This document shows, in pieces, positions 859 through 15,879 of a stretch of DNA of 36,299 bases. The stretch comes from Roseibacillus sp. Its GTDB lineage: Bacteria; Verrucomicrobiota; Verrucomicrobiia; Verrucomicrobiales; Akkermansiaceae. The DNA lies in assembly GCA_002715825.1 (NCBI GenBank), contig PBAI01000024.1, positions 1 to 36,299 of the forward strand, in the 5' to 3' direction. Under the pieces are notes generated by a model, which searched no databases, was not told where the DNA came from, and was given only the letters and a program-made list of their open reading frames with translations. Numbering within the stretch: the first letter of the stretch is position 1; the number at the start of each line of letters is the position of its first letter. A program made the translations under genes and the position numbers.

Positions 859-2208
859 TCAGGAAATCACATCCCAGACCGGTCTACCACTTGAGATCGG
901 AACGGGGCGATCCTGAAGGTCGTGGATCATCGTGTCAGGAGCAATCCCGAGTAATTGGTAGATGGTTGCAGTCAGGTCTTCTGGAGTAACAGGATTCTCT
1001 TCCGGAGCACTGGCGGTTTTGTCGGATTTTCCGTAGACGAACCCTTTTTTTACTCCCCCGCCGGCAAGAAGGACGGAGTAGCATTGAGGCCAGTGATCAC
1101 GACTCACGTTCTTATTGATCTTAGGCGTCCGTCCGAACTCGCCCATCCAAACCACAAGCGTCTCATCGAGCATCCCCCTTTGATCCAGGTCTTCCAGAAG
1201 GGTAGGGAGAGTCTGGTCAGTAATCGGGAGGTGGTATCCTTCGACAATGGGATACATACGAGTGTTATCGAAGCCATGGGTATCCCATCCACCATCGTTG
1301 ATCCTGCGACCTCCAATACTGCTTGCGAAATAGACGGTGGTAAACTTGACCCCGCTTTCGGCAAGACGTCGAGCAAGGAGGCAGCCTTGACCGTAGGTGG
1401 TGCGTCCGTAGCGGTCACGAAGCCACTCTGGTTCCTTGCTCAGGTCGAACGCATTGCGGGCGCGCTCTGAGTTAAGCATACGCAGGGCCCGGTCGTAGTA
1501 CTGATCCATTCCACGTGCTTCAGCGGAGCGATCCATCAGGCGCGATTGCCGGTCAATGAGTTTCTGGAGTCCGCGACGGTGATGAAGGCGGTCAATGTCG
1601 AGACCGTGTGGAAGGCTGAGCTCCGGGAGGCGAAAGTCCTTGGAGTTCGGATCCCGGGGAATAAAGAGGGGGTCATGTTTCTTTCCGAGGAAACTGGCAT
1701 GTTGACCCGGAGTCCGGGATCCATCCGCTACCACGTGAGGGTAGCTTACAAAGGTGGGCAGTTCGGCTACTGTTCCCGGAGCAAGGCGGTCCACAACTGA
1801 TCCGTAGGCTGGATAAAGGTCCGGCAGGTCCCGCAGGCGCTGGTCATCACTCGGCGGGCGCTGCCCTGTCAGAGCATAATAGCCGGCTGAGTTATGATTT
1901 TTCATGGTGTGATGAAGCGTGCGAATTACTGTGCAACGGTCCATCCATTTTGAGAGTCTGGGGAGATGTTCGCAGATTTCGATGTCAGGATTGCTGGTGC
2001 GGATCTGTTTGTGCGGACTGCGATATTCCTTCGGCGCATCCGGCTTCATATCAAGAATATCGATCTGACTTGGTCCACCCCACTGGAAAAGAAAGATGAC
2101 TGACTTTGCCTTTGGCGCGATCGGTATCTCGAGTGGTTCTTTCTCAGCCCCCTGGAGAATTCTCGGCATGGTGAGTCCAAGAAGCCCCATGCCGCCTGCC
2201 TTGATCAT
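859..2208 (-). CDS. DUF1501 family protein (sulfatase-like fold, Tat-exported type); true N-terminus may lie upstream of 2208
   Basis: 'KAGGMGLLGLTMPRILQ', 'FLFQWGGPSQIDILDMKPDAP', 'EHLPRLSKWMDRCTVIRTLHHTMKNHNSAGYYALTG', 'WDTHGFDN', 'LVVWMGEFGRTPKIN...GRDHWPQCYSVLLAGGGVKKGFVYGKSD'-type DUF1501 signatures. Directly downstream of the DUF1549/1553 gene. Confidence 0.93.
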   Translation of the reverse strand: MIKAGGMGLLGLTMPRILQGAEKEPLEIPIAPKAKSVIFLFQWGGPSQIDILDMKPDAPKEYRSPHKQIRTSNPDIEICEHLPRLSKWMDRCTVIRTLHHTMKNHNSAGYYALTGQRPPSDDQRLRDLPDLYPAYGSVVDRLAPGTVAELPTFVSYPHVVADGSRTPGQHASFLGKKHDPLFIPRDPNSKDFRLPELSLPHGLDIDRLHHRRGLQKLIDRQSRLMDRSAEARGMDQYYDRALRMLNSERARNAFDLSKEPEWLRDRYGRTTYGQGCLLARRLAESGVKFTTVYFASSIGGRRINDGGWDTHGFDNTRMYPIVEGYHLPITDQTLPTLLEDLDQRGMLDETLVVWMGEFGRTPKINKNVSRDHWPQCYSVLLAGGGVKKGFVYGKSDKTASAPEENPVTPEDLTATIYQLLGIAPDTMIHDLQDRPVPISSGRPVWDVIS

Positions 2209-2310
2209 AGTGCGGCGGGAAGGCTCGGGCGAGAGAGCGCGGAAACTGGAGCAGGAGGGATTGATAGTTCGGGAGGGTTCGAGGTGTTATTGTCGGACAG
2301 TAAAGATCGA

Positions 2311-4533
2311 TCAGTGTCTGAAGAGGAACTCTTTGGAGTTGAGAAGAGCCCATGAGATGTCTTCAAGTGCCCCCCGCCTGCCCGGGCCGGGACGATCCGC
2401 GATGTGTTGAAGAAGTCTTTCCTGTTCCTCGGTGGTCGGGGGCCTGTTGATAGCCGTCCAATAGAGCTCAGCCAGAATTTCCTCATCGCTCAATTTTCCG
2501 GACAGGAGTTGATCAATGAGGTTGCCTTCCGCCTGAATAAGATGAGAGAGAGTTTCTCCACTGGTCATTTCGAAGGCTTGAGCAAGTGAGATTTCATTCA
2601 GGCGCTCGGCGTCAGAGTTCAGCAGTCGCGGGGGTTTGCCAAACAAGTGTAGAAAGCGATCATCATGATGAGGGTTCTTCTCAAGGAATGCTCCCTTGAC
2701 TCCTGGAAGGGCAATCGCCCGTTTAATGTTCTTGTATTGCTTGAATTTTCCGGGTTGTCCGAGTGTCGAGTGGGCGGCATCGAGGAGGACCTCGGCAGGT
2801 AGTCTTGTCATGGATGCCCGGGCATAGTTTTCGGAATCTCTTACGTTGGTGCTGTTGGTCTCGGTAGAGAGTTGATAGGAGCGAGAGCTTGTGATTCGGA
2901 GAATGATATGTCGCAGGTCGTAGCCGTGATCAGAGAAATCTCTTGCGAGTGCTCTCAGTAACCTTGGGTGGCTGGCCGGGTTGGTGGGCCGGAAATCATC
3001 AACCGGGTTTACCAGACCACGCCCCATCAAGTTGTACCAGATCCGATTTACCTGAACCATGGCAAAGAGGGTATTGCCGGGGTCGGTAATCCAATCAGCT
3101 AGTTGCTCGAAACGGTCTTGCTCCGCATTCAAGGCAACTGCTTCAGATCCCAGAAGTCCCGGCTCAGGTGGTTTTTTACTTCTTGGATCCTTGAACTTCC
3201 GCTCAGAGACGAGTTGGACTTCCTGCTCTCCAACGAAGGTATTCTTGTCGAACTTATCGCGGCGCTTGTTCTCAATAACCTTGTAATCAATGCCATCAAA
3301 GAGAGCTGCGAACTTGTAGTATTCGTCTTGTGTCCATCGGTCGAAGGGGTGGTTGTGGCATTTGGCACAACGCAGGCGGGCACCGAGAAAGAGTTGGGCT
3401 GTAGCTTCGGAGCGATCGGTCGGATTGCGGAGTGCCCGGTAGTAGTTAGCTGGAGGGTTGTTATAAGTGCTTCCCCGAGCGGTAAGAAGTTCGCGCACGA
3501 ACTGGTCGATTCCCTTGCCCTTATCAAAGCTTTCGCGCATCCAGCCGTGGAAGGCCTCAACCCCGGTGTTGTCCAGGACCTTCTCCTCGTTGCGCAGGAG
3601 ATCGGACCACTTGAGAGCCCAGAACTGAGAATACTCCGATCTTTGGAGAAGTTGCTTGATTAGTGTTTGCCTCTTGTCTTTCGCGGCGTTGGCAACGAAG
3701 GAACGAGCTTCTGCAGCCGTAGGCAAGGTCCCGATGATATCAAGGAAGGCACGTCTGACAAAGGTGGCGTCGTCACACAACCCCGATGGGTTCATGCGGA
3801 GACGACGCAGCTTAGTGAAAATGTGCTCGTCGATGTAATTGACAGGAACGGGATCATTCCACGTGAACTCAGGCCGTTCAGGTAGAAGGGTAATGCGAGT
3901 TGAAACGTGCTTGTTCAAATAACGGGTGAGAACTGTTGTCTCTCCCGGTTTGAGGAAGGTGACTTTCCCCTTTGGATCTATTTCGGCCAGCAGGTTGGAG
4001 AGGCTGTAGGTCGCCCAGTAAGTTACGTCGCGTTGCTCTCCATCGTCGAAGGTCGCCCAAACCCTGAGCTGAAGACTGCGTTGCGGTTCGCTGAAAATGG
4101 CAGAATCGGGGGTAACCTTCAGCGAGATCAAGTTGGCTGCTTCGCCGCTATCATCTTCCGCGCCCTGTGCGATCCAGCGGAGCAAAAGGGAGTATTCCTG
4201 CGAATCGACGGCGAAGCGCTCGTTGCCCTTGTGCTCCATTTGGACAGTTGGCTTGCGAAGAATCCAGCTGGCTGCGGGACTGCTCTTTTTCACCCTTCTT
4301 GCGCCTTCCAAAAGAGCCTTATGGTCTTCTGCGGGCTTTTCGCCCCAGAGCGACAGTTTAAGTTCGCCTTTTCCATCCCGATGGCCGTGACAGCCTCCGG
4401 TATTGCAGCCGCCCCGTGAAAGGATGGGCATGATGTCGTTCCGAAAAGAGACGCGCGTTTCTTGCGCAGAGGTGAGATCAATCGGAGACAGGAGAATTCC
4501 AAGACACAAATAGACCCGGAAGTGACTCACCAT
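2311..4533 (-). CDS. Planctomycete-type cytochrome-domain protein with Big2-like region, DUF1549 (PSCyt2) and DUF1553 (PSD1)
   Basis: ORF 2311..4632. Internal Met at 4533 gives a signal peptide (MVSHFRVYLCLGILLSPIDLTSAQ). 'GGCNTGGCHG' heme-like CxxxxCH, 'YIDEHIFTKLRRLRMNPSGLCDDATFVRRAFLDIIGTLPT', 'LFLGARLRCAKCHNHPFDRWTQDEYYKFAALFDGI', 'FAMVQVNRIWYNLMGRGLVNPVDDFRPTNPASHPRLLRALARDF'. Confidence 0.93.
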   Translation of the reverse strand: MVSHFRVYLCLGILLSPIDLTSAQETRVSFRNDIMPILSRGGCNTGGCHGHRDGKGELKLSLWGEKPAEDHKALLEGARRVKKSSPAASWILRKPTVQMEHKGNERFAVDSQEYSLLLRWIAQGAEDDSGEAANLISLKVTPDSAIFSEPQRSLQLRVWATFDDGEQRDVTYWATYSLSNLLAEIDPKGKVTFLKPGETTVLTRYLNKHVSTRITLLPERPEFTWNDPVPVNYIDEHIFTKLRRLRMNPSGLCDDATFVRRAFLDIIGTLPTAAEARSFVANAAKDKRQTLIKQLLQRSEYSQFWALKWSDLLRNEEKVLDNTGVEAFHGWMRESFDKGKGIDQFVRELLTARGSTYNNPPANYYRALRNPTDRSEATAQLFLGARLRCAKCHNHPFDRWTQDEYYKFAALFDGIDYKVIENKRRDKFDKNTFVGEQEVQLVSERKFKDPRSKKPPEPGLLGSEAVALNAEQDRFEQLADWITDPGNTLFAMVQVNRIWYNLMGRGLVNPVDDFRPTNPASHPRLLRALARDFSDHGYDLRHIILRITSSRSYQLSTETNSTNVRDSENYARASMTRLPAEVLLDAAHSTLGQPGKFKQYKNIKRAIALPGVKGAFLEKNPHHDDRFLHLFGKPPRLLNSDAERLNEISLAQAFEMTSGETLSHLIQAEGNLIDQLLSGKLSDEEILAELYWTAINRPPTTEEQERLLQHIADRPGPGRRGALEDISWALLNSKEFLFRH

Positions 4534-4714
4534 GCCCCCAAAAGATCGTCTCTGGCAGGCTCGGTTCCAAGTGTAAAGTTTGTGGATGAACCAGTCGTGG
4601 TGTGAAACGTGCACGCGGGAGGTGGAACGCAAAGGGACTTAAAATAAAGACCGATTGCAAAGTTCTGATTGAAACATTTCATCTGATGGATTCGTATGAA
4701 GGCAACCTATCGCC

Positions 4715-5761
4715 ATGCTTTTAACCTTCTCTTTCAGAATAACTTTGGTCGCTGCCTGTGTGGCAGGAAACTCTTTCGGGCAGCTCTGGACTGATGCGGC
4801 GGATAAAACGCTTCCCCCGGACTTCCGGGTGCAGGGCGAATACGCGGGGCAGGAAATGGGAGCGCAGGTAATCGCGCTGGGAAAAGGAAGGTTTCATGCG
4901 GTGGTTTATCCCGGTGGATTACCGGGTGCCGGGTGGGACGGTAAGAATAAATCTCTTTTGGATGGGAAGCTGGACGGAGATCAGGCGTTATTTACCGCGG
5001 CCGAAGGCTCAAGAAGTTATATGGCACGTGAGGCAGGTAAGTTCAGCGCTACCCGCGACTTTCCTCCGCGGGGCCATAAACCTTACAGCGGATCGATTTC
5101 GAATGGAGTGTTTTCGGGGACTTCGGCCAAGGGGGCTAAATTCTCTCTGAAGCGGATCGTTAGAAAGTCTCCCTCTCTCGGGGCAAAGCCCCCCCGCAAT
5201 GCCATCGTCCTCTTCGACGGGAGTAGAGAGAGCATGAGGAACTGGCAGGGAGGTCGTTTCGATGAAAAGACAGGATTACTCAATACGGATGGACAAGATA
5301 TTCGAACTAAGAAAAAGTTTCTGAATTACATCATGCATGTGGAATTCATGCTTCCATTCAAGCCCGATGCCCGGAGTCAGGGGCGCGGAAACAGCGGGTT
5401 CTATCAGGTGGATTTGTATGAGATGCAAATCCTCGATTCCTTCGGCCTCATGGGTCTTAACAACGAGTGCGGAGGAATTTATCAGAAGGCTGACTCAAAG
5501 GTGAACATGTGCCTTCCTCCCCTTCAATGGCAGGCTTATGATGTCGATTTTAATTCCGCGGTCATGAAGGATAACAAGAAGGTGACTAATGCGATTCTTA
5601 CCGCCCGTCTCAACGGGGTAACTATTCACGAAAAGCTTCAGATCAACGGTAAAACGGGTGGTGCCCGTGGAGAGCCTGAAGGGACTCCCGGAGTGATAAA
5701 ACTACAGGGACACGGAAATCCTCTGCAATTTCGCAACGTGTGGCTTCTGCCGAAAGAATAG
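4715..5761 (+). CDS. DUF1080 (3-keto-disaccharide hydrolase-type, LamG-like) protein, paralogue A
   Basis: 'NAIVLFDGSRESMRNW', 'DARSQGRGNSGFYQVDLYEMQILDSFGL...NECGGIYQKADSKVNMCLPPLQWQAYDVDF', 'LNGVTIHEKLQI', 'IKLQGHGNPLQFRNVWLLPKE'. Signal-peptide-like N-terminus. Confidence 0.92.
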   Translation: MLLTFSFRITLVAACVAGNSFGQLWTDAADKTLPPDFRVQGEYAGQEMGAQVIALGKGRFHAVVYPGGLPGAGWDGKNKSLLDGKLDGDQALFTAAEGSRSYMAREAGKFSATRDFPPRGHKPYSGSISNGVFSGTSAKGAKFSLKRIVRKSPSLGAKPPRNAIVLFDGSRESMRNWQGGRFDEKTGLLNTDGQDIRTKKKFLNYIMHVEFMLPFKPDARSQGRGNSGFYQVDLYEMQILDSFGLMGLNNECGGIYQKADSKVNMCLPPLQWQAYDVDFNSAVMKDNKKVTNAILTARLNGVTIHEKLQINGKTGGARGEPEGTPGVIKLQGHGNPLQFRNVWLLPKE

Positions 5762-5812
5762 GAAAGAATTCACTTTCGATCAGCCCTTTCAAGATCGCGA
5801 CAATCCCGGGGT

Positions 5813-5828
5813 GAATTAATGTTAATTC
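5813..5828. promoter_or_regulatory. Perfect palindromic site GAATTAA-TG-TTAATTC upstream of the sulfatase gene
   Basis: 7-bp arms, 2-bp spacer, read directly; ends 27 bp before the ATG at 5856. Regulatory role is an inference. Confidence 0.35.
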
Positions 5829-5855
5829 GTCGCCGTGGTTTCATCACCTCACATC

Positions 5856-7247
5856 ATGACTCGCAAAAAACAAAGGGCACCGGGTAGATTCGGAATATTG
5901 ACGGCAGTGTTTCTCGCGGTGCTGACTTTGGAATGCCCTGCTGCAGCGAAGCCCAATATCCTTTTCATTCTGATCGATGATATGGGGTGGATGGATCTTG
6001 GGTGTCAGGGGAATTCTCACGTAAAGACCCCCCATATCGACCGGTTTGCAACAGAGGGAGTGCGGTTTACGGATGCTTACGCACCGGCCCCGGTCTGTTC
6101 CCCGACAAGGGCAGCCCTCATGACTGGTCATTCTCCGGCGCGGCTGCACCTCACGAATCATCTGCCTCATCAAGACCGGTTTACTCCGCCGGATTCAAAG
6201 CTCTTGCCAGCGGAAATGAGAGATCATCTCCCTCTTGAGTATACCACGATCGCAGAGCGTCTCCGTGATGAAGCAGGATACGCCACCGCCTTCATTGGGA
6301 AATGGCATCTCTACAAGGGCCGGGAGGAAAAGTTCGCGGCTCAGTTTCAGGGTTTCGATATTAACATCGGGGGTTGCTCCTACGGGGGGCCGCCCACTTT
6401 TTTCGATCCCTACCGGATCCCGTTTCTCACAGATCGCAAGGAGGGGGAATATCTTCCGGATCGGCTGGCAGACGAAACAATCAGCTTCATGCGGAAGCAG
6501 GTGCAGGCAAAGAAACCATTCTATGTCGCCCTATGGAATTATACCGTACACTGGCCGATGGAGGCTCCTGCGGAGTTTGTCGCAAAGTGGGCTGACAAGC
6601 CAAAGGTGGGCTACAATCACAAGATTTACCCGGCAATGTTGGAAACGATGGACCTTGCCATCGCGCGTGTTCTCGGAGAGCTCGAGCGGTTGAAAATCGA
6701 GGAGGAAACGTTCGTTGTCTTCACCTCGGACAATGGGCCCTTCGGGGGGGTGGGTGATGCGCGTCCGCTGCGGGCAGATAAAGGGCATCTTTACGAGGGA
6801 GGGATCCGGGTGCCACTGATTGTGCGGTGGCCGGGAAAGGTGGCGGCGGGGAAGGTCCGTGAGGACCCCGTCATTCTCACGGATTTTTATCCGACCCTTC
6901 TTGAGGTGGCTGGTCTGAAGACGAGGAAGCACTACCCCGGGGATGGCGAAAGCCTCCTGCCCCTCCTGACGGACAAGGGGGATCTGGAGCGGGATGCCAT
7001 CTTCTGGCATTATCCTAATTTTGCCTTTCACCGTGACAACCGGCTGGGAAGTGCCATTCGGATGGGAGACTACAAGCTCATTGAGTTTTTCGACCGCAAC
7101 GAGGTGGAACTCTATAATCTCAGGGAAGATCTCGGGGAAAAAAAGAACCTTGCAGCGGTTGAAGCAGGTCGCGTGCAGGAGATGCGAAAGCGCCTGAGCC
7201 GCTGGAGAGAGAAGAGTGGTGCTCGCATGCCTCGTCCGAGGGAGTGA
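5856..7247 (+). CDS. Formylglycine-dependent sulfatase (type I, arylsulfatase A-like), exported
   Basis: 'KPNILFILIDDMGWMDLGCQGN', 'CSPTRAALMTGHSPAR' (CxPxR modification motif), 'GKWHL', 'VVFTSDNGPFGGVGDARPLRADKGHLYEGGIRVPLIVRWPG'. ORF starts at GTG 5835; ATG 5856 precedes the signal peptide. Confidence 0.95.
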   Translation: MTRKKQRAPGRFGILTAVFLAVLTLECPAAAKPNILFILIDDMGWMDLGCQGNSHVKTPHIDRFATEGVRFTDAYAPAPVCSPTRAALMTGHSPARLHLTNHLPHQDRFTPPDSKLLPAEMRDHLPLEYTTIAERLRDEAGYATAFIGKWHLYKGREEKFAAQFQGFDINIGGCSYGGPPTFFDPYRIPFLTDRKEGEYLPDRLADETISFMRKQVQAKKPFYVALWNYTVHWPMEAPAEFVAKWADKPKVGYNHKIYPAMLETMDLAIARVLGELERLKIEEETFVVFTSDNGPFGGVGDARPLRADKGHLYEGGIRVPLIVRWPGKVAAGKVREDPVILTDFYPTLLEVAGLKTRKHYPGDGESLLPLLTDKGDLERDAIFWHYPNFAFHRDNRLGSAIRMGDYKLIEFFDRNEVELYNLREDLGEKKNLAAVEAGRVQEMRKRLSRWREKSGARMPRPRE

Positions 7248-7316
7248 GTCAGCGTCTTCAAGTCCGAAGGGGCAGTTAATCCGATCGGGATGCCTTTACT
7301 TGGAGCTCTTGATGAG

Positions 7317-8978
7317 TCAAGCCCCGGGAGAGGCTGGGGGAACCGGAGGGGGCAATTTGGAGGGGTGTAGCTTCCTGCCATTCAGCATCACTCCGATGAG
7401 GGTATAGCGCACAAGGTATCTGTAGGTAAGAAGCAGGAAGGCAAAGGTGACCACACAGAGCAGGGTAAGCTTGAGAGAGCTGGGAAGATTCCAGCGTGAG
7501 ATCAGGGCCTGGAGCATCATCACAAGAGGGAGGTGGGCGAGATACATCCAGTAGGAGGCATCCGAGACGAAACGCACGCCCTTGTTCTCGCGCGAGAACA
7601 AGCTCCGAAACAGGCCGATGAAGGCGAGGATCATCACCCATGCGAAGAGGGCTGCGCAGAGGCTGTAGACGACACGCTGCTCTCCCACGGGAACCTGCTG
7701 AAAAAGATGAATCCCATAGACCCCCAGTGGAACAGCAGCTACCAGCAGGAACGGCCACCAGCGTCCTGCCTGATCCTCGAATTCGTGGCGGCCGAAGCAG
7801 ACTGCGCCGTAGCCAAAGAAGATGGCATAATAAAGCAGCTTTGGAGGCCACGGAAGAATCCCCATGGCGGTATCGGGACCAAAGGACTGGGTCATGAAAT
7901 ACTGCGCGCAGGCCGTTAAGGGGACTAAAGCAAGGAGCGCGACTGGAGGCCGGAGGAGCCAAGCTGGAAGTGAGGGAGTTCCGAGGGCCTTGAGGGTCAG
8001 GATGGCTAAGGCGAATCCCGCAACCAGCATGAGAAGATAGTAGAGAAACCAAAGGTGGGCAGTGAGGGGTAACATGGTGAGAATCATGTAGAAGTCCTTA
8101 AGTTCATTTAGCGTGGCGGTGGATTCTTTGCCCGTGGCGCCGCTTGCGATCAGGATTGGTTCAAGCTGTTCTCTTCCGGCCAGCACTTCCCTGCGGTCGA
8201 CGGTGACATTGAGCATCCCGGAGATGATTTCGACTGTATTCCAGCTCTCCCGCAAGCTGTCGAGGGGGGTCTTCTTCTCCCAGGAGCGGGCATTCACCTG
8301 TGCGCCCTTGTCGAGGAGGAGTTTGGCAATTTCGGTTCGGCCAAGAAAGGCAGCGCCATGCAGCGCGGTATGGCCCCCCTCGTCGGTTTGATCCGGGGTG
8401 GCGCCAAATTCAAGGAGGGTCTTGGCGCACTCACTCTGGTTATACCAGACAGCGACCATCAGGGCGCTCTGGTCTGCCCGATCGGTCTGATTAGGGTCTG
8501 CACCCTGTTCCAGCTCTTGAGTCAGTTGTGTAATATTTCCCTCGTGCAGAGCGGTCCAGAAGGTGGTCTCTCCGGCAGTTCTCTTAGGCCCGACTTGAAA
8601 GTTTTTGCCCAGAGAGTCCGCGACCCACACCAAAGGGATGATAATGATTCCGCCCACAACGAGTGGGAGGAGAATGCGTTTGACGCGATGGAGAAGAAGG
8701 GCGCCAAGACCTTTCCGCCTCCACAGCATGGTGGTGAAGTATCCGCTGATGAGGAAAAAGAGGGGCATCCTGAACCCGTGGATGGCCTGATTGGCAAATT
8801 CATACGCCTCATGCTGTTGCAGGTCCTGAGCAGGCCAGTAAGGATTGGCGAAAAAGGAGAGGAGACCGTGCATCACGATCCCGAGCAACATCGCGGTGGC
8901 TCTGAGGGCATCGAGGTGGTGGTAACGCGGTGACCCGATCACGGCGGTATCCTTCCCCGGGATGAGGTGAGGGGACAA
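7317..8978 (-). CDS. Acyltransferase-3 family membrane protein with an inserted ankyrin-repeat domain
   Basis: Acyltransferase-3: 'YHHLDALRATAMLLGIVMHG', 'HGFRMPLFFLISGYFTTMLWRRKG', 'RVKRILLPLVVGG', 'TAHLWFLYYLLML', 'SDASYWMYLAHLPLVM'. Ankyrin repeats at about residues 136-282: 'TTFWTALHEGNITQLTQELEQGADPNQTDRADQSALMVAVWYNQSECAKTLLEFGATPDQTDEGGHTALHGAAFLGRTEIAKLLLDKGAQVNARSWEKKTPLD'. Confidence 0.92.
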   Translation of the reverse strand: MSPHLIPGKDTAVIGSPRYHHLDALRATAMLLGIVMHGLLSFFANPYWPAQDLQQHEAYEFANQAIHGFRMPLFFLISGYFTTMLWRRKGLGALLLHRVKRILLPLVVGGIIIIPLVWVADSLGKNFQVGPKRTAGETTFWTALHEGNITQLTQELEQGADPNQTDRADQSALMVAVWYNQSECAKTLLEFGATPDQTDEGGHTALHGAAFLGRTEIAKLLLDKGAQVNARSWEKKTPLDSLRESWNTVEIISGMLNVTVDRREVLAGREQLEPILIASGATGKESTATLNELKDFYMILTMLPLTAHLWFLYYLLMLVAGFALAILTLKALGTPSLPAWLLRPPVALLALVPLTACAQYFMTQSFGPDTAMGILPWPPKLLYYAIFFGYGAVCFGRHEFEDQAGRWWPFLLVAAVPLGVYGIHLFQQVPVGEQRVVYSLCAALFAWVMILAFIGLFRSLFSRENKGVRFVSDASYWMYLAHLPLVMMLQALISRWNLPSSLKLTLLCVVTFAFLLLTYRYLVRYTLIGVMLNGRKLHPSKLPPPVPPASPGA

Positions 8979-9046
8979 GGAGGGAGTAGAGAATCTTCCT
9001 CAGATACCTCGTTGCGGGAGCCCTAGCGGTAAGATAGGAGATTCAA

Positions 9047-9868
9047 ATGCTACGATGCTTACTGATGTTGGCGGTGGGATTCTCAGCGGGCCCCTTCCGG
9101 GTGGGAGCGGAAGTTGCGGAGGATGGATACATTCGTGAGAACAATATCCCTTATCGCAACAAGAATTCTCCCGGATGGGATCAGTATATGCAGGAACGCT
9201 GTGTTCTGGATCTTTACAGGCCGGCGGGAAAAAAAGGTTTTTCCACGGTGGTATGGTTTCACGGGGGCGGGTTGCGCGGAGGCAGTAAGGCGGTGCCGTG
9301 GCAGCTCAAGAACAAGGGTATCGCGGTGGTGGCGGTGAATTACCGGCTGTTTCCGAAGGTAGAGTGCCCAGCCTATATCGAGGATGCGGCTGCCGCGGTT
9401 GCGTGGACCTTCAAGAATATTCAGCGCTATGGAGGAGACCTCGGAGCCATTCATGTTTCCGGCCACTCGGCTGGGGGCTACCTGACGAGCATGATAGGAC
9501 TGGACAAGAGCTACTTGGCGGAACACGGAATTGACGCCGACCACATCGCTTCTCTCGTGCCCTTCAGTGGTCACACCATTACCCACTTCACGCCCCGGGA
9601 GGAAAGGGGTATCAGCGACAAACAGGCGATTGTGGACAGGTTCGCGCCCCTGTTCCATGTCCGGAAGGATTCACCGCCGCTGGTGCTCATCACCGGGGAC
9701 CGCGAGCTGGAGCTGCTCGGTCGTTACGAGGAAAACGCGTATCTCTGGCGAATGATGCAGGTGACGGGGCACAAGCAGACCCAACTCCACGAGTTGGGAG
9801 GATTCGATCATGGCGGGATGGCCGCGCCCGCCTTTGGGATTCTTCTGAAAGTCCTGCGCGGGAGGTAA
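9047..9868 (+). CDS. Alpha/beta hydrolase (carboxylesterase / HSL-like), exported
   Basis: 'VVWFHGGGLRGGSK' oxyanion-hole HGGG, 'VAVNYRLFP', 'YGGDLGAIHVSGHSAGGYLTSMIGLD' nucleophile elbow GHSAG, C-terminal 'ELGGFDHGGM'. Signal peptide at N-terminus. Confidence 0.93.
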   Translation: MLRCLLMLAVGFSAGPFRVGAEVAEDGYIRENNIPYRNKNSPGWDQYMQERCVLDLYRPAGKKGFSTVVWFHGGGLRGGSKAVPWQLKNKGIAVVAVNYRLFPKVECPAYIEDAAAAVAWTFKNIQRYGGDLGAIHVSGHSAGGYLTSMIGLDKSYLAEHGIDADHIASLVPFSGHTITHFTPREERGISDKQAIVDRFAPLFHVRKDSPPLVLITGDRELELLGRYEENAYLWRMMQVTGHKQTQLHELGGFDHGGMAAPAFGILLKVLRGR

Positions 9869-9968
9869 AGGGGTGGAGCGGCACTGCAGGATCCTGAAAA
9901 TCCATGGGCGGGCTTTTATCTGGAGGCTATTCCTTGTCGCCGGTGGTTCAGGTGCTTAGTTTTCACCT

Positions 9969-12900
9969 GTGAAAGTTGTGAGTCACGTGGGGGTCATTAT
10001 GACCTGGATGTCCTTGTTGCTTCCGGCAGGAGCCGCCGGGGTGCTTGAGCTTCGGAAGGGCGATGTCGTTGCCTTCGTTGGAGGAACCGATCTTATTAAT
10101 ATCCAGAAGGAGGGGCGGCTCGAGTCGGCTCTGACAATGAAGTGGAAAGAGCATGCTCCACTCTTCCGTGATTTTGCCTGGGACGGTGACACTGTTTACC
10201 ACCAGAGTGCAGAGCGGGAGAGGTGGCGCGAGGATGCCTTTGGTGATTGGGATGATCAATTGAAGAGGGCTGGAGCGACGGTGGTGATTGCCCAGTTTGG
10301 TAAGATGGAGTCGTTTGACGGCGAGGAAAGAATCGATGACTTCGTCGAGGCTTACGGCGATTTCCTCGACCACGTAGGGAAAGGAAGAAGGATCATACTT
10401 CTGGAACCTGCTTCAATGCAGTGGAAGGAAGCTGTAGAGCGTGCCGCTCTGCCTGCCTATGTTGCCGCTATTGCCGATCTGGCTGCGGAGCGGAAGGTTC
10501 CCTTCGTGTCTGCCGACAGAAAAGATATGGTGGCCTCGTTCATCGAGCAGCTTTCCGGAAAGCCCGAGCCAACCGGTGACGCGTACGAGTTGATGTGCGT
10601 GACGGTTGCTGAAAAGCACCGGCTCTGGTGTGAATACTGGCGGCCCGCGAACTGGAAGTGCATCTTTGGGGATGACAGCAGGAGAATTTTTGCCAAGGCC
10701 GCGCACGGGTTGCCATCGATTCAGGAGGAATGGGCGAGATATCCGGCACTGATTGCGGAAGTTGAGAACGCGATTTTTTCGGGGAAACCCTGGACCGCTC
10801 CGGTAGCGCCGGAATTGACGGGTTCTGCGGAGGCTGGGATTGAAAAGGAATTGGATAGCTTTGAGGTTCTCGAGGGTTTCGAAGTCAACCTCTTTGCCGA
10901 CGAGTCCCTCGGTGTTAGGAATCCTCTTTCGGTTCGCTGGGATGCCAGTGGCCGAATGTATGTGGCTTGCTCGGACGTCTATCCTCAGATTGAAGCCGGG
11001 GTGAAAGGGTATGATCGAGTGATCGCTCTGCGTGACACTGACCACGACGGCAAGGCGGATGAGTCAGTGGTGTTTGCAGAGGATTTGCTGATTCCCACCG
11101 GAATGGAGGTAGGGCCTGACCGCATCTATATCGGGCAGGGTACCGATTTGCTGACCTTGAGAGATACCGACGGGGACGGTATTGCGGACGAACGCGTTAC
11201 CCTCCTGACCGGATTTGGAAATGGGGATTCTCATCAGACCAGCAATTCCTTTGTCTGGAGTCCTGGAGGAGAACTCTGGTGGTGTCAGGGAGATGGGATT
11301 GAGTCCCGGGTAGAGACTCCGTTTGGAGTATCGTCCCTGTTTCAGGCTGGAGCCTACCGAATGCGACCGCGGGAGTTGCGGCTCGATCCGCTACTGGACG
11401 ATTTCATGGGACCTGGGAATCCATGGGGAATTGCTTTCGACGACTTCGGACAGTCCTTTATTATCGATGGCGCTGGAGGGGTGTCGTTCCTTACTCCGGC
11501 ATCGATCCCTGCAAAACGCCGTCTGCGACTTCCCAGGATCGGGAATCCCGGTGGATATTGCGGGATCGAGTGTCTTGGGGCTGGGAACCTGCCCAGCGAC
11601 ATGCAAGGGCAGTTTGTCATCGGGGATTACAAGAAGAATCAGGTAAGCCGTTTTGAAACCAAGGAGGATGGTGCCGGGTTCAAACTGGAATGGAAGAGTC
11701 CGTTATTACGATCGAAGCATCGAAACTTCCGGCCCATCGATGTCAAGATGGGTCCCGATGGAGCGATTTACATTGTAGACTGGTACAATCCGATCACCTG
11801 TCATCAGGACGATTTCTATCGTCATCCCGAACGGGATAAGACTCATGGGCGAATCTGGCGGGTGACACCCAGCAAGGGCCCTTTGAAACCACCGACGCTG
11901 GTGGGTTCCAGTCTCGCCCATTTACTCGAGGCTCTCAAGGCCCCGGAGCGCTGGACTCGACTGAAGGCCAAGCAGGTGCTGGCAACCCGGAAGCCGGAGG
12001 AAGTTCAGGAAGCGGTCCGCGAATGGAGTCGTTCACCAGACCTTGAGGGTCGGGATTTGCTCGAGGCGGTGAGTCTACTGGAGTGGATCGGGCGGCCGGA
12101 TGCTGCCGTCCTTCGCCTTCTTCTGGCATCCCCGGACTACCGCGCGCGGGCTTACGGCGTCAGGATTCTTGGCCGCTGGGGTCAGAAGCTTGGAGATTTC
12201 CACGAGACGCTCGTGAAGACAGCAAGGGACTCGCACCCGTTGGTGCGAATGGAGGCTGTAATTGCGGCAGGACAATCTTCCCGTGCTGAGTCGGTCCTCG
12301 TTTCAGCGGCGGTAGCGGAGTCAGAGCGTGATCGTTGGATTGAGTATGCCTTTTCCCAGGCGGTTCATCACAGCAAGCGGTTCTGGTTGCCAGCTTTACG
12401 AGCTGGGCGACTCAATTTTACTGAAGTCCGGGGGGGATTGGCGGCGGTTCTCGGGGCGTCTGATTCTCGGAGTGTTCTTGAGGAAATCCGCAAGATGCTG
12501 AGCGGTGATAAGATGGAAGAAGAAGCGTGGGATGGTCTTGCTTTGACTCTGGCCGCTCTGGGCGAGGAGGAGGACCTGAGAGTAATCCTGAATTCAGATC
12601 GAATCAGCTTGTCCCTTCTGCGAGCGATGATGGAACGCGAGCGTCCTGGGTTTGACGTCATACCGCCGCTTGGGCGGGCCTTGTATCATGCTGACTCGAC
12701 AAGGCGGATTGAGGCGGTGAAGCTGGCGGCTCATTGGAAGGTTAGGGAATTGTATGAGCCTGTGTTGAAATTGGCCAGGGACAGGGGTGTTGATTCGGAT
12801 TTAAGAGATGCGGCATTAAGGTCGCTCGGTAGTCTTGGTGGAAGAGACACAGTAAGGTTTCTCAAATCCGAGGTGGGCTCCGCCAGTGAAGTTCAACCTG

Positions 12901-13655
12901 CCGCACTGTTCTCGATTCTCCAACTCGCTCCAGAGGAGGGAACGCGAATTGCGGTAGAGCTGCTGCAAGAACTGGCAAACGGCGACACGATAGGGACAAT
13001 TTTCAAGGATTTTGCCAGTCGAGAGGGTGCGCCTGCGTTGCTGGCAAGAGAATTGGAAGCGGCTGCTATCAAGAGCCCACAGGCAAAGCGGCTCCGTGAA
13101 GTCTGGGTTTCCACCGGGTTGGTTGCGAAAGATTTAGAGGGAGTTCTTAATGATCTGGCGGGAACAGGAACTGTGCAGGAATATAACGAGGATATCATCA
13201 ACCGCATAGTTGCCAGAGCGAAGAAAGGAAGCATTGAGCAAGGGAGAGAGATCTTTCACTCCTCGCAGGCAAGTTGCTCTGCGTGCCACAAGGCTGACCG
13301 AGGAGGAGAATCGTTGATCGGGCCGAATCTCAGTGCCGTGGGAAGTGGCCTTCTGCCGGATCGCATTGTCACCGAGGTTCTCTGGCCGCGCCGCCAGGTC
13401 AAGGAGGGCTATGCCTTGAGCCGGATCATTACCCGGGACGGGAATGTTCAGCAGGGCTACATTCAGGCGAACCGTAATGAGGATTTATTGCTTCTCCGAG
13501 ATTTTGCGACCAATTCGCTGTTCGAGATACCGCGGGAAACCATTCTAAAAGAGGAGCAGGTTGGGAGCTTGATGCCCCCTACTGCCGCCGGTTTGAAGGA
13601 GGAAGAGCTGGCAGATCTTTTCGCCTATCTTTTTTCACTCGATGGAGAGAAGTAG
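9969..13655 (+). CDS. Large multidomain protein: degenerate SGNH/GDSL-like N-terminus + PVC-type heme-binding-domain protein (beta-propeller dehydrogenase-like) + HEAT repeats + C-terminal cytochrome c domain
   Basis: 'RKGDVVAFVGGTDLINIQKEGRLESAL' SGNH-like start. 'FEVLEGFEVNLFADESLGVRNPLSVRWDASGRMYVACSDVYPQ', 'ALRDTDHDGKADESVVFAEDLLIPTGMEV', 'RPIDVKMGPDGAIYIVDWYNPITCH'. Repeated HEAT-like helices. 'GREIFHSSQASCSACHKADRGGESLIGPNLSAVG' (CxxCH), 'LKEEELADLFAYLFSL'. Confidence 0.92.
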   Translation: MKVVSHVGVIMTWMSLLLPAGAAGVLELRKGDVVAFVGGTDLINIQKEGRLESALTMKWKEHAPLFRDFAWDGDTVYHQSAERERWREDAFGDWDDQLKRAGATVVIAQFGKMESFDGEERIDDFVEAYGDFLDHVGKGRRIILLEPASMQWKEAVERAALPAYVAAIADLAAERKVPFVSADRKDMVASFIEQLSGKPEPTGDAYELMCVTVAEKHRLWCEYWRPANWKCIFGDDSRRIFAKAAHGLPSIQEEWARYPALIAEVENAIFSGKPWTAPVAPELTGSAEAGIEKELDSFEVLEGFEVNLFADESLGVRNPLSVRWDASGRMYVACSDVYPQIEAGVKGYDRVIALRDTDHDGKADESVVFAEDLLIPTGMEVGPDRIYIGQGTDLLTLRDTDGDGIADERVTLLTGFGNGDSHQTSNSFVWSPGGELWWCQGDGIESRVETPFGVSSLFQAGAYRMRPRELRLDPLLDDFMGPGNPWGIAFDDFGQSFIIDGAGGVSFLTPASIPAKRRLRLPRIGNPGGYCGIECLGAGNLPSDMQGQFVIGDYKKNQVSRFETKEDGAGFKLEWKSPLLRSKHRNFRPIDVKMGPDGAIYIVDWYNPITCHQDDFYRHPERDKTHGRIWRVTPSKGPLKPPTLVGSSLAHLLEALKAPERWTRLKAKQVLATRKPEEVQEAVREWSRSPDLEGRDLLEAVSLLEWIGRPDAAVLRLLLASPDYRARAYGVRILGRWGQKLGDFHETLVKTARDSHPLVRMEAVIAAGQSSRAESVLVSAAVAESERDRWIEYAFSQAVHHSKRFWLPALRAGRLNFTEVRGGLAAVLGASDSRSVLEEIRKMLSGDKMEEEAWDGLALTLAALGEEEDLRVILNSDRISLSLLRAMMERERPGFDVIPPLGRALYHADSTRRIEAVKLAAHWKVRELYEPVLKLARDRGVDSDLRDAALRSLGSLGGRDTVRFLKSEVGSASEVQPAALFSILQLAPEEGTRIAVELLQELANGDTIGTIFKDFASREGAPALLARELEAAAIKSPQAKRLREVWVSTGLVAKDLEGVLNDLAGTGTVQEYNEDIINRIVARAKKGSIEQGREIFHSSQASCSACHKADRGGESLIGPNLSAVGSGLLPDRIVTEVLWPRRQVKEGYALSRIITRDGNVQQGYIQANRNEDLLLLRDFATNSLFEIPRETILKEEQVGSLMPPTAAGLKEEELADLFAYLFSLDGEK

Positions 13656-13750
13656 CGCACAGGGAGAGATTTGGAGAAAATATATCCGGGGTTTGCTGGA
13701 TGTGGGCGTTTACGGAGTAAGGGAGGCAGAGCTCCTAAAGGCCTAATAAT

Positions 13751-13791
13751 CGGGAGATTTGGAGTTCATGCTTGTCATGCTCCAACTCCCG
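13751..13791 (+). repeat. Imperfect hairpin in the intergenic region upstream of the thioredoxin-like gene
   Basis: cgggagatttggagttcatg-cttgt-catgctccaactcccg: arms GGGAG/TTGGAG/CATG pair with small bulges. No T-run follows, so not called a terminator. Confidence 0.45.
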
Positions 13792-13882
13792 GCATACCGC
13801 CGAAGACGCACTTGGCGGAATTTAAAAGAACAAATTACCCGTTCAGCCCGTCATATCTGATAGCAACAAAGATACAGAGAAC

Positions 13883-14572
13883 ATGAAGCCACTAAGAAGA
13901 ATGATGATGGGGATAGCCGCGGGCGCCCTGATGATAAACGCGCAAGCAGCTGACAAGGTCGAAATTGACGGTGCCTCAGTTGGAGTGTGGACCATGGATT
14001 TTGATGCCGCGGTAAAGCTGGCAGGAGAAAAGAAACTGCCTCTTATCTTGAATTTTACGGGTTCGGATTGGTGCGGATGGTGCAAATTGATGGATAAGAA
14101 CGTTTTCGCGGAAGAGGCATGGAAAACCTACGCTAAGGAGCATGTGCTCTTGGTTACCCTCGATTTTCCACAGGATAAGTCAGTTGTTCCTGAAAAATAT
14201 GTGGCCCGGAATAAGGCGCTGCAGGAAAAGTTTGGCGTAAGAGGTTATCCTACCTACGTCGTGCTCGATAACGACGGTGATACCAAGCTCGGCCAGCTTG
14301 GAGCGGGCCGGGACAAGACGCCTTCCTCGTTTATTGAGGAATTCAAGGGCGTTGTCCGTATGAGTGCAGGGGCGATCGAAGCTTACGCCAAGGCTAATCC
14401 CGACAAAGCAGATGCTTACAAAGCAGCGATCGCGGATTTTCAGAATGCAAAAAAAGAACTTATGGACTGGATTGAGACGAAACCGAAGAGGACGGAAGAG
14501 AACACGAAGTTGTTTGAAGGTTTCAACAAGCGCATTTCGGAGGCCGAAGCTGCTCTCAAGGCCTTTAATTGA
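13883..14572 (+). CDS. Thioredoxin-family protein (DsbD-gamma/thioredoxin_7-like), exported
   Basis: Signal peptide (MMMGIAAGALMINAQAA), 'LPLILNFTGSDWCGWCKLMDKNVFAEEAWKTYAKEHVLLVTLDFP', 'LQEKFGVRGYPTYVVLDNDG' with cis-Pro. Confidence 0.93.
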   Translation: MKPLRRMMMGIAAGALMINAQAADKVEIDGASVGVWTMDFDAAVKLAGEKKLPLILNFTGSDWCGWCKLMDKNVFAEEAWKTYAKEHVLLVTLDFPQDKSVVPEKYVARNKALQEKFGVRGYPTYVVLDNDGDTKLGQLGAGRDKTPSSFIEEFKGVVRMSAGAIEAYAKANPDKADAYKAAIADFQNAKKELMDWIETKPKRTEENTKLFEGFNKRISEAEAALKAFN

Positions 14573-14598
14573 TCTCTTTCGAGTAGAGATATTCACAG

Positions 14599-14649
14599 CG
14601 GGGAAGGCTCTTTCGGAGGAATCCGGGATTCGAGTCCTTCCCCGTTTTT
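14599..14649 (+). terminator. Rho-independent terminator after the thioredoxin-like gene
   Basis: CGGGGAAGG (14599-14607) pairs perfectly with CCTTCCCCG (14636-14644), followed by TTTTT (14645-14649). Loop is long (28 nt). Confidence 0.7.
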
Positions 14650-14811
14650 GTGTCGATTGCAGGGGGAAAGGGACCTGCCTGCCCGCTCCCGTGTCTCTCG
14701 CAAGAAGCACCATGTCGCATGGAGGGGTGATCTCATGGTGGGGAAGTGCGAAATAAGGGCTTTCCGACGGTGGTCAGATACGGCTTGATCTCGTTTAGCC
14801 AACAGACACAC

Positions 14812-15879
14812 ATGAAAAAGACCGTCTTATTCCTGCCTACCATTGTTACCTCGATCGCCCTGCTATTTCCGGTAGCCACGCACGCGGCGGACAATAATAA
14901 AGTTTGGACTGATCCTGCAACGGCTGCGGATGAGGACCCGGATTTCCGTATCCAGGGAGAATATGCCGATACGGGGGCCGGTGCTCAGGTCATCGCTCTG
15001 GGGAATGGTCACTTTCAGGCTGTTCTTTATCCGGGGGGTCTCCCGGGTGCAGGTTGGGATGGGAAAGGCAAGAGCCTGCTGGACGGAAAAATTGAGGGAG
15101 GAAAGGCTGTCTTCGTCGCGGCCTCCGGGAAGAAGCGCTACATGGCTGGCGGCGGAACGGAGTTTAGTGCCACGCGCAAATTCCCGCCAGAGGGACACAA
15201 GGAGTATGGGGGCTCGATTGCTGACGGGGCTTTTCATCTCACCGCCAAGAGTGGTGAAAAGATGGTGCTGAAAAAGGTCGAACGCAAAAGTCCCACCCTT
15301 GGGGCAAAGGCCCCCAAAGGGGCTGTAGTGCTCTTTGATGGAAGTAATGTGGACCACTGGAAAAATGGAAAAATTACCGGTGGTCTTCTGGGGGCGACGA
15401 ACGCGATCAGCACAAAGCTGTTCAGGGACTGCACAATCCACGTTGAATTCCGGACGCCTTACCGCCCGCATTCACGGTCGCAGGGCCGGGGCAACAGTGG
15501 AGTTTACTATCAGGGTCGCTGGGAGACTCAGGTGCTCGATTCCTTCGGGCTCGAGGGTCTGATGAATGAGTGCGGTGGAATTTATTCCATAGCTGCCTCA
15601 AAGCTTAACATGTGTCTGCCGCCCCTGGCGTGGCAGACCTATGACGTCGAGTATACCCACGCTAAGTTCGACAAGGACGGCAAGCGGACCGCGTGGCCGC
15701 GGATGACAGTGAAGCTGAACGGAGTGACGGTTCATGATGATCAGGAGATGGGAAAAACCCACACAACTGCAGCTCCGGTAAGTGGTCCACTCAAGCCTGA
15801 GCTTGGTGGTCCAATATTCCTGCAGAATCACGGTAATCCGGTGTTTTACCGGAACATCTGGGTTCTTCCAAAGGAGTAG
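14812..15879 (+). CDS. DUF1080 (3-keto-disaccharide hydrolase-type) protein, paralogue B
   Basis: 'DFRIQGEYADTGAGAQVIALGNGHFQAVLYPGGLPGAGWDGKGKSLLDGKIEG', 'GAVVLFDGSNVDHWKNGK', 'RSQGRGNSGVYYQGRWETQVLDSFGLEGLMNECGGIYSIAASKLNMCLPPLAWQTYDVEY', 'NPVFYRNIWVLPKE'. ATG 14812 starts the signal peptide (ORF from 14746). Confidence 0.92.
   Translation: MKKTVLFLPTIVTSIALLFPVATHAADNNKVWTDPATAADEDPDFRIQGEYADTGAGAQVIALGNGHFQAVLYPGGLPGAGWDGKGKSLLDGKIEGGKAVFVAASGKKRYMAGGGTEFSATRKFPPEGHKEYGGSIADGAFHLTAKSGEKMVLKKVERKSPTLGAKAPKGAVVLFDGSNVDHWKNGKITGGLLGATNAISTKLFRDCTIHVEFRTPYRPHSRSQGRGNSGVYYQGRWETQVLDSFGLEGLMNECGGIYSIAASKLNMCLPPLAWQTYDVEYTHAKFDKDGKRTAWPRMTVKLNGVTVHDDQEMGKTHTTAAPVSGPLKPELGGPIFLQNHGNPVFYRNIWVLPKE

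Follow-up and report, generated by a model that had tools for sequence, protein, structure and literature searches.

The window, that is, the whole stretch of DNA that was analysed (36,299 nucleotides of contig PBAI01000024.1 from Roseibacillus sp.), encodes on its minus strand an acyltransferase-3 (AT3) membrane protein that carries ankyrin repeats. The open reading frame runs from position 8978 to position 7317 and comprises 553 codons in a single frame, uninterrupted by stops. The TTG start is the choice of the ORF caller, and a GTG located 12 codons downstream is equally possible. This protein is the only PF01757 member found in the source genome, which is 88% complete. The neighbouring genes (window positions 859-15879) include a DUF1501 protein, PSCyt2/PSD1, two 3-keto-disaccharide hydrolases, a sulfatase, a BD-FAE-type esterase, a DUF7133/HEAT protein and a thioredoxin-like protein, a gene set that is typical of marine PVC bacteria. 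The features of the AT3-ankyrin gene, with helices taken from an AlphaFold2 (AF2) model, are the following:

7317-8978, minus strand (8978 to 7317): AT3-ankyrin open reading frame, 553 amino acids, TTG start, stop included
8862-8921, minus strand: TM1, residues 20-39, AF2 helix with the DxxR-x10-H motif (D23, R26, H37)
8712-8810, minus strand: TM2, residues 57-89, AF2 helix including H67 and R70, both invariant
8601-8708, minus strand: RxxR motif (R98 and R101, both invariant) and TM3, residues 91-126, AF2 helix
8565-8600, minus strand: flexible linker between TM3 and the ankyrin stack, residues 127-138, variable in sequence and length, with low pLDDT at 134-136
8214-8564, minus strand: ankyrin stack of four helix pairs, residues 139-255 (Pfam Ank/Ank_2, AF2, Foldseek)
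8145-8195, minus strand: helix that caps the ankyrin stack, residues 262-278, in which G268-R269 are conserved (AF2)
8073-8117, minus strand: helix before TM4, residues 288-302 (AF2)
7983-8060, minus strand: TM4, residues 307-332, AF2 helix with the HLWFL motif, in which W310, F311 and L312 are invariant and H308 and L309 nearly so
7410-7964, minus strand: TM5 to TM10, residues 339-523, with an invariant SDASYWMY..H signature at 472-482

The Pfam model Acyl_transf_3 (PF01757) matched the protein in two pieces (4.5e-34, 118.4 bits against a gathering cut-off of 31), and Ank/Ank_2 matched between both pieces, at residues 145-232 (2e-15 and 4e-15). With 56.3 bits against a Pfam cut-off of 21.1 for Ank, and with 33-residue helix-loop-helix repeats in a stacking fold, the inserted part has the features that define ankyrin repeats. 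One intact reading frame therefore contains an ankyrin module between AT3 transmembrane segments, as the original prediction had proposed, and the interval that it had assigned to the insert, 8133-8573 (residues 136-282), fits the modelled ankyrin stack and capping helix (139-278). The AF2 model is confident (mean pLDDT 90.4, pTM 0.83), presents the AT3 and ankyrin parts as separate, and resolves the stack into the helix pairs 139-146/149-157, 172-178/182-190, 205-211/215-223 and 238-242/246-255. In a Foldseek search with the full model, the inserted part resembled DARPins (designed ankyrin proteins), with a TM-score of up to 0.88 by target length, and the best 50 matches were ankyrin structures and a few unrelated entries.

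All 54 aligned relatives match PF01757, and D23, R26 and H37 (an R-X10-H motif with Asp, in TM1) as well as R98 and R101 (RxxR) are invariant across the 54 homologues. Since the AT3 motifs are invariant, enzyme activity is expected, and the protein is probably an active acyltransferase. Among NCBIfam models, the one nearest to the AT3 part is that of MdoC/OpgC (PRK03854, 5e-39), which are stand-alone OPG succinyltransferases and likewise consist of a single AT3 polypeptide without SGNH domain; however, MdoC is described as AT3-only, without ankyrin repeats. Assignment as an MdoC/OpgC equivalog was rejected (134.5 bits against an NCBIfam cut-off of 338).

Ten transmembrane helices and cytoplasmic N- and C-termini are predicted from the AF2 helices, hydropathy and charge bias, and the AF2 model and hydropathy place the ankyrin stack within the loop between TM3 and TM4. 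In 41 proteins, the mean net charge was +6.2 for the 2-3 loop, +1.9 for the 4-5 loop, +3.0 for the 8-9 loop and +3.9 for the C-terminus, against -11.5 for the ankyrin loop. Given these positive inner loops and the strongly negative ankyrin loop, the ankyrin domain should be extracytoplasmic, a placement supported by both the charge bias and the topology published for relatives. In OafB and Oac, the 3-4 loop is a long outer loop or a re-entrant loop; in models of OafB, it closes off the acyl-CoA pore, which opens when the loop moves, and the catalytic histidine lies at the periplasmic, or outer, face (PMC9833829). By this analogy, the insertion site corresponds to the loop described as the pore gate in OafB modelling, and the helix at residues 288-302 is a possible remnant of an OafB-type loop helix. 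The original prediction had located the ankyrin module in a loop between transmembrane segments; the AT3 loop position stands, and it can now be narrowed to the TM3-TM4 loop and, from charge bias and OafB topology, to the extracytoplasmic face. It follows from such a location that a partner or acceptor, if there is one, would be found in the periplasm or outside the cell, and not in the cytosol.

A contig scan of genomes yielded 75 loci, counts from which are not prevalences because some of the queries were ankyrin-region peptides. More than 50 homologues carry the insert at the identical site, in Verrucomicrobiota, Planctomycetota, Actinomycetota, Chloroflexota and Armatimonadota. Measured from the RIxLPL motif of TM3 to the HLWFL motif of TM4, loop length is sharply bimodal, with 43-90 residues in relatives without the insert and 165-323 in those with it, in agreement with the earlier claim that the usual loop is short. 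At least one ankyrin repeat was present in 41 of 41 full-length insert-bearing homologues and in 0 of 27 insert-less ones. The number of repeats is not constant: a single unit can be recognised in L017 and L057, and the array is duplicated in L042, a Pirellulaceae relative whose 323-residue loop (L042:3364-5307) apparently holds a doubled ankyrin-plus-cap unit. In the order of the source genome, the long form was found at E below 1e-80 in about 29 of 190 sampled genomes, with a patchy distribution, and 4 of these genomes belong to the family of the source genome; further insert-bearing members were found in other Verrucomicrobiota orders by reading the sequences directly. When only TM4-TM10 was used as query across the phylum, insert-bearing proteins still came out on top, and insert-less proteins appeared at lower scores only. 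A search of plasmids returned separate AT3 or ankyrin pieces and none spanning the whole protein.

The AT3 protein with ankyrin repeats in the TM3-TM4 loop is thus a genuine architecture, conserved across five phyla. An artefact, either an open reading frame fused by a frameshift or by assembly, or low-complexity similarity annotated as a domain, is so improbable as to be negligible: the source genome has 7% contamination, yet the locus shares synteny with Roseibacillus-type loci, the Pfam and structural matches are highly significant, and an assembly chimera was rejected because the same architecture recurs in more than 50 independent assemblies, comprising metagenome-assembled genomes and a complete chromosome (L017, CP036272).

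In a tree of 68 proteins built after removal of the insert columns, a single branch (95/91, 953 of 1000 bootstraps) separates the 41 insert-bearing proteins, which come from all five phyla, from the others, and the trait needs a single gain. A wider quick tree with 26 additional proteins, in which the placement of long branches is unsure, requires two changes, which could be a gain and a loss. The candidate loss concerns a Chloroflexota-rich group in which loops are sometimes long (79-90 residues) and ankyrin repeats are absent. Such ankyrin-free TM3-TM4 loops of 79-90 residues occur in L045, L047, L048 and L052 (Chloroflexota/Acidobacteria) and could be either intermediates that preceded the gain or remnants that followed a loss. 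Two specific alternatives to a single origin were compared in AU tests and were not firmly rejected (p values of 0.31 and 0.06); a strict single insertion event is therefore favoured but not proven.

Estimates of dN/dS were roughly 0.1-0.5 for the ankyrin part against 0.02-0.26 for the transmembrane parts and indicate that purifying selection acts on the former; the ankyrin repeats and cap evolve faster than the transmembrane core. Furthermore, the cap motif G268-R269, with a weighted conservation of 80% for G268 and 64% for R269, is found again in different phyla, as are several aromatic residues that do not belong to the repeat scaffold (W141, F/W211 and W246). F/W211 presumably lies on the surface through which DARPins bind.

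A second AT3-ankyrin architecture was found in a genome of the same class as the source genome (G387), which encodes one protein with the loop insert (L081) together with three other AT3-ankyrin proteins (L091, L092 and L093). According to Pfam and transmembrane analysis, the latter have a short 3-4 loop, a probable 11th transmembrane helix and then C-terminal ankyrin repeats, and they fall away from the insert clade in the wider quick tree. Their layout is the same as that of AT3-SGNH proteins such as OafB, with ankyrin repeats in place of the SGNH domain, and their C-terminal ankyrin domain is a second route to the extracytoplasmic side. As three paralogues from a single genome, they represent one extra lineage and not a broad pattern.

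Taken together, these data are best explained, in our view with reasonable though far from complete confidence, by a stand-alone AT3 enzyme that acquired an ankyrin domain once in its TM3-TM4 loop, where the domain would provide a docking site above the pore, outside the cytoplasm. In the AT3 part, acyl-CoA would enter the membrane pore from the cytoplasm and the acyl group would be passed to an acceptor at the outer face. Insertion of the ankyrin domain into the extracytoplasmic TM3-TM4 loop would have happened once, in an ancestor of the subfamily, and purifying selection would have kept the domain in place. Positioned above the pore mouth, it could bind either the glycan carrier that acts as acceptor or a periplasmic partner protein, and a docked acceptor would thereby be presented to the catalytic His37. 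The ankyrin domain may also influence the opening of the TM3-TM4 loop, an idea that comes from structural models.

Two other roles of the domain have to be weighed against docking. The original prediction had suggested that the insert could make acylation responsive to a partner, and the explanation nearest to this idea is a regulatory one, in which a periplasmic signal protein binds the domain and thereby opens or closes the gate between TM3 and TM4, so that acylation is conditional. The insert does sit in the loop that is described as controlling the OafB pore (PMC9833829), and ankyrin domains usually bind proteins. One of these, Bd3460 of Bdellovibrio, is a periplasmic ankyrin protein that binds partner enzymes and changes conformation upon target binding (PMC4686830). 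However, the linkers that flank the insert are variable and partly flexible, and conservation of the gene neighbours stops at close relatives, of Roseibacillus type or in the Acidimicrobiia, which leaves no candidate partner. We regard regulation of this kind as rather unlikely. Somewhat less probable still is a purely structural role, in which the domain serves the structure or folding of the enzyme, as a lid, dimer contact or stabiliser, and has no ligand of its own. Since ankyrin repeats and cap evolve faster, the domain could be structural or adapted to particular lineages, and the variable repeat number would also suit such a role, but the retention of the domain in five phyla with common non-scaffold aromatics and its second, C-terminal attachment to AT3 in another lineage speak against it.

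Docking is preferred over these roles because of the purifying selection and the non-scaffold residues kept across phyla, and by analogy with SGNH domains: most likely, the ankyrin domain would dock its acceptor or partner above the pore on the extracytoplasmic side, in a role like that of the SGNH domain fused to AT3 in OafB. Indeed, the AT3-SGNH proteins OafB, OafA and OatA share the AT3 core with its RX10H and RxxR motifs and likewise have an extra soluble extracytoplasmic domain beside the active site. In these enzymes the extra domain is a catalytic SGNH hydrolase, located C-terminally after TM11, whereas here it is an ankyrin domain in the TM3-TM4 loop; the AT3-ankyrin protein has no SGNH match in Pfam and its C-terminus ends after TM10 in the AF2 model. 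HGSNAT, of the TmAT superfamily, also has an extracytosolic accessory domain adjoining the TmAT pore. This luminal domain is N-terminal and, unlike the AT3 insert, is not ankyrin. A Foldseek comparison of the insert-less L045 model with HGSNAT gave a probability of 0.96-0.98, but with a non-significant E of about 0.1 and a TM-score of 0.40. Bd3460 likewise has ankyrin repeats that are periplasmic and act by binding enzymes, but it is a soluble exported protein, whereas the AT3 ankyrin domain is part of a membrane enzyme. A broader and more speculative idea, to which we attach little probability, is that of a class of ligand- or partner-controlled AT3 enzymes with ankyrin repeats in the pore-gate loop, in which extracytoplasmic binding would license acyl-CoA translocation and transfer; two lineages would have come independently to the combination of AT3 with an external ankyrin domain.

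AT3 and ankyrin are both well-known families. Reviews and structure papers on AT3 describe stand-alone proteins and fusions with SGNH or alanine racemase, and ankyrin goes unmentioned in them (PMC9558356, PMC9833829, PMC12423673). A literature text search for AT3 and ankyrin, whose coverage excludes most subscription journals, gave nothing relevant, and the AT3-ankyrin architecture is widespread in public genomes yet apparently undescribed. How stand-alone AT3 enzymes recognise their extracytoplasmic acceptors is a stated open question (PMC9558356), and a separable soluble domain in the gate loop offers a handle on it: alone, it could be used as bait for the acceptor or partner, and its exchange or deletion would make gating testable. 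The family is, moreover, a further conserved example of ankyrin repeats whose predicted place of action in free-living bacteria is outside the cytoplasm.

Finally, when the source gene was compared with its nearest relatives, L005 and L001, synonymous divergence was lower in the ankyrin region (8133-8564; about 0.08-0.14) than in the transmembrane regions (0.22-0.54), which could reflect either recent recombination or chance.
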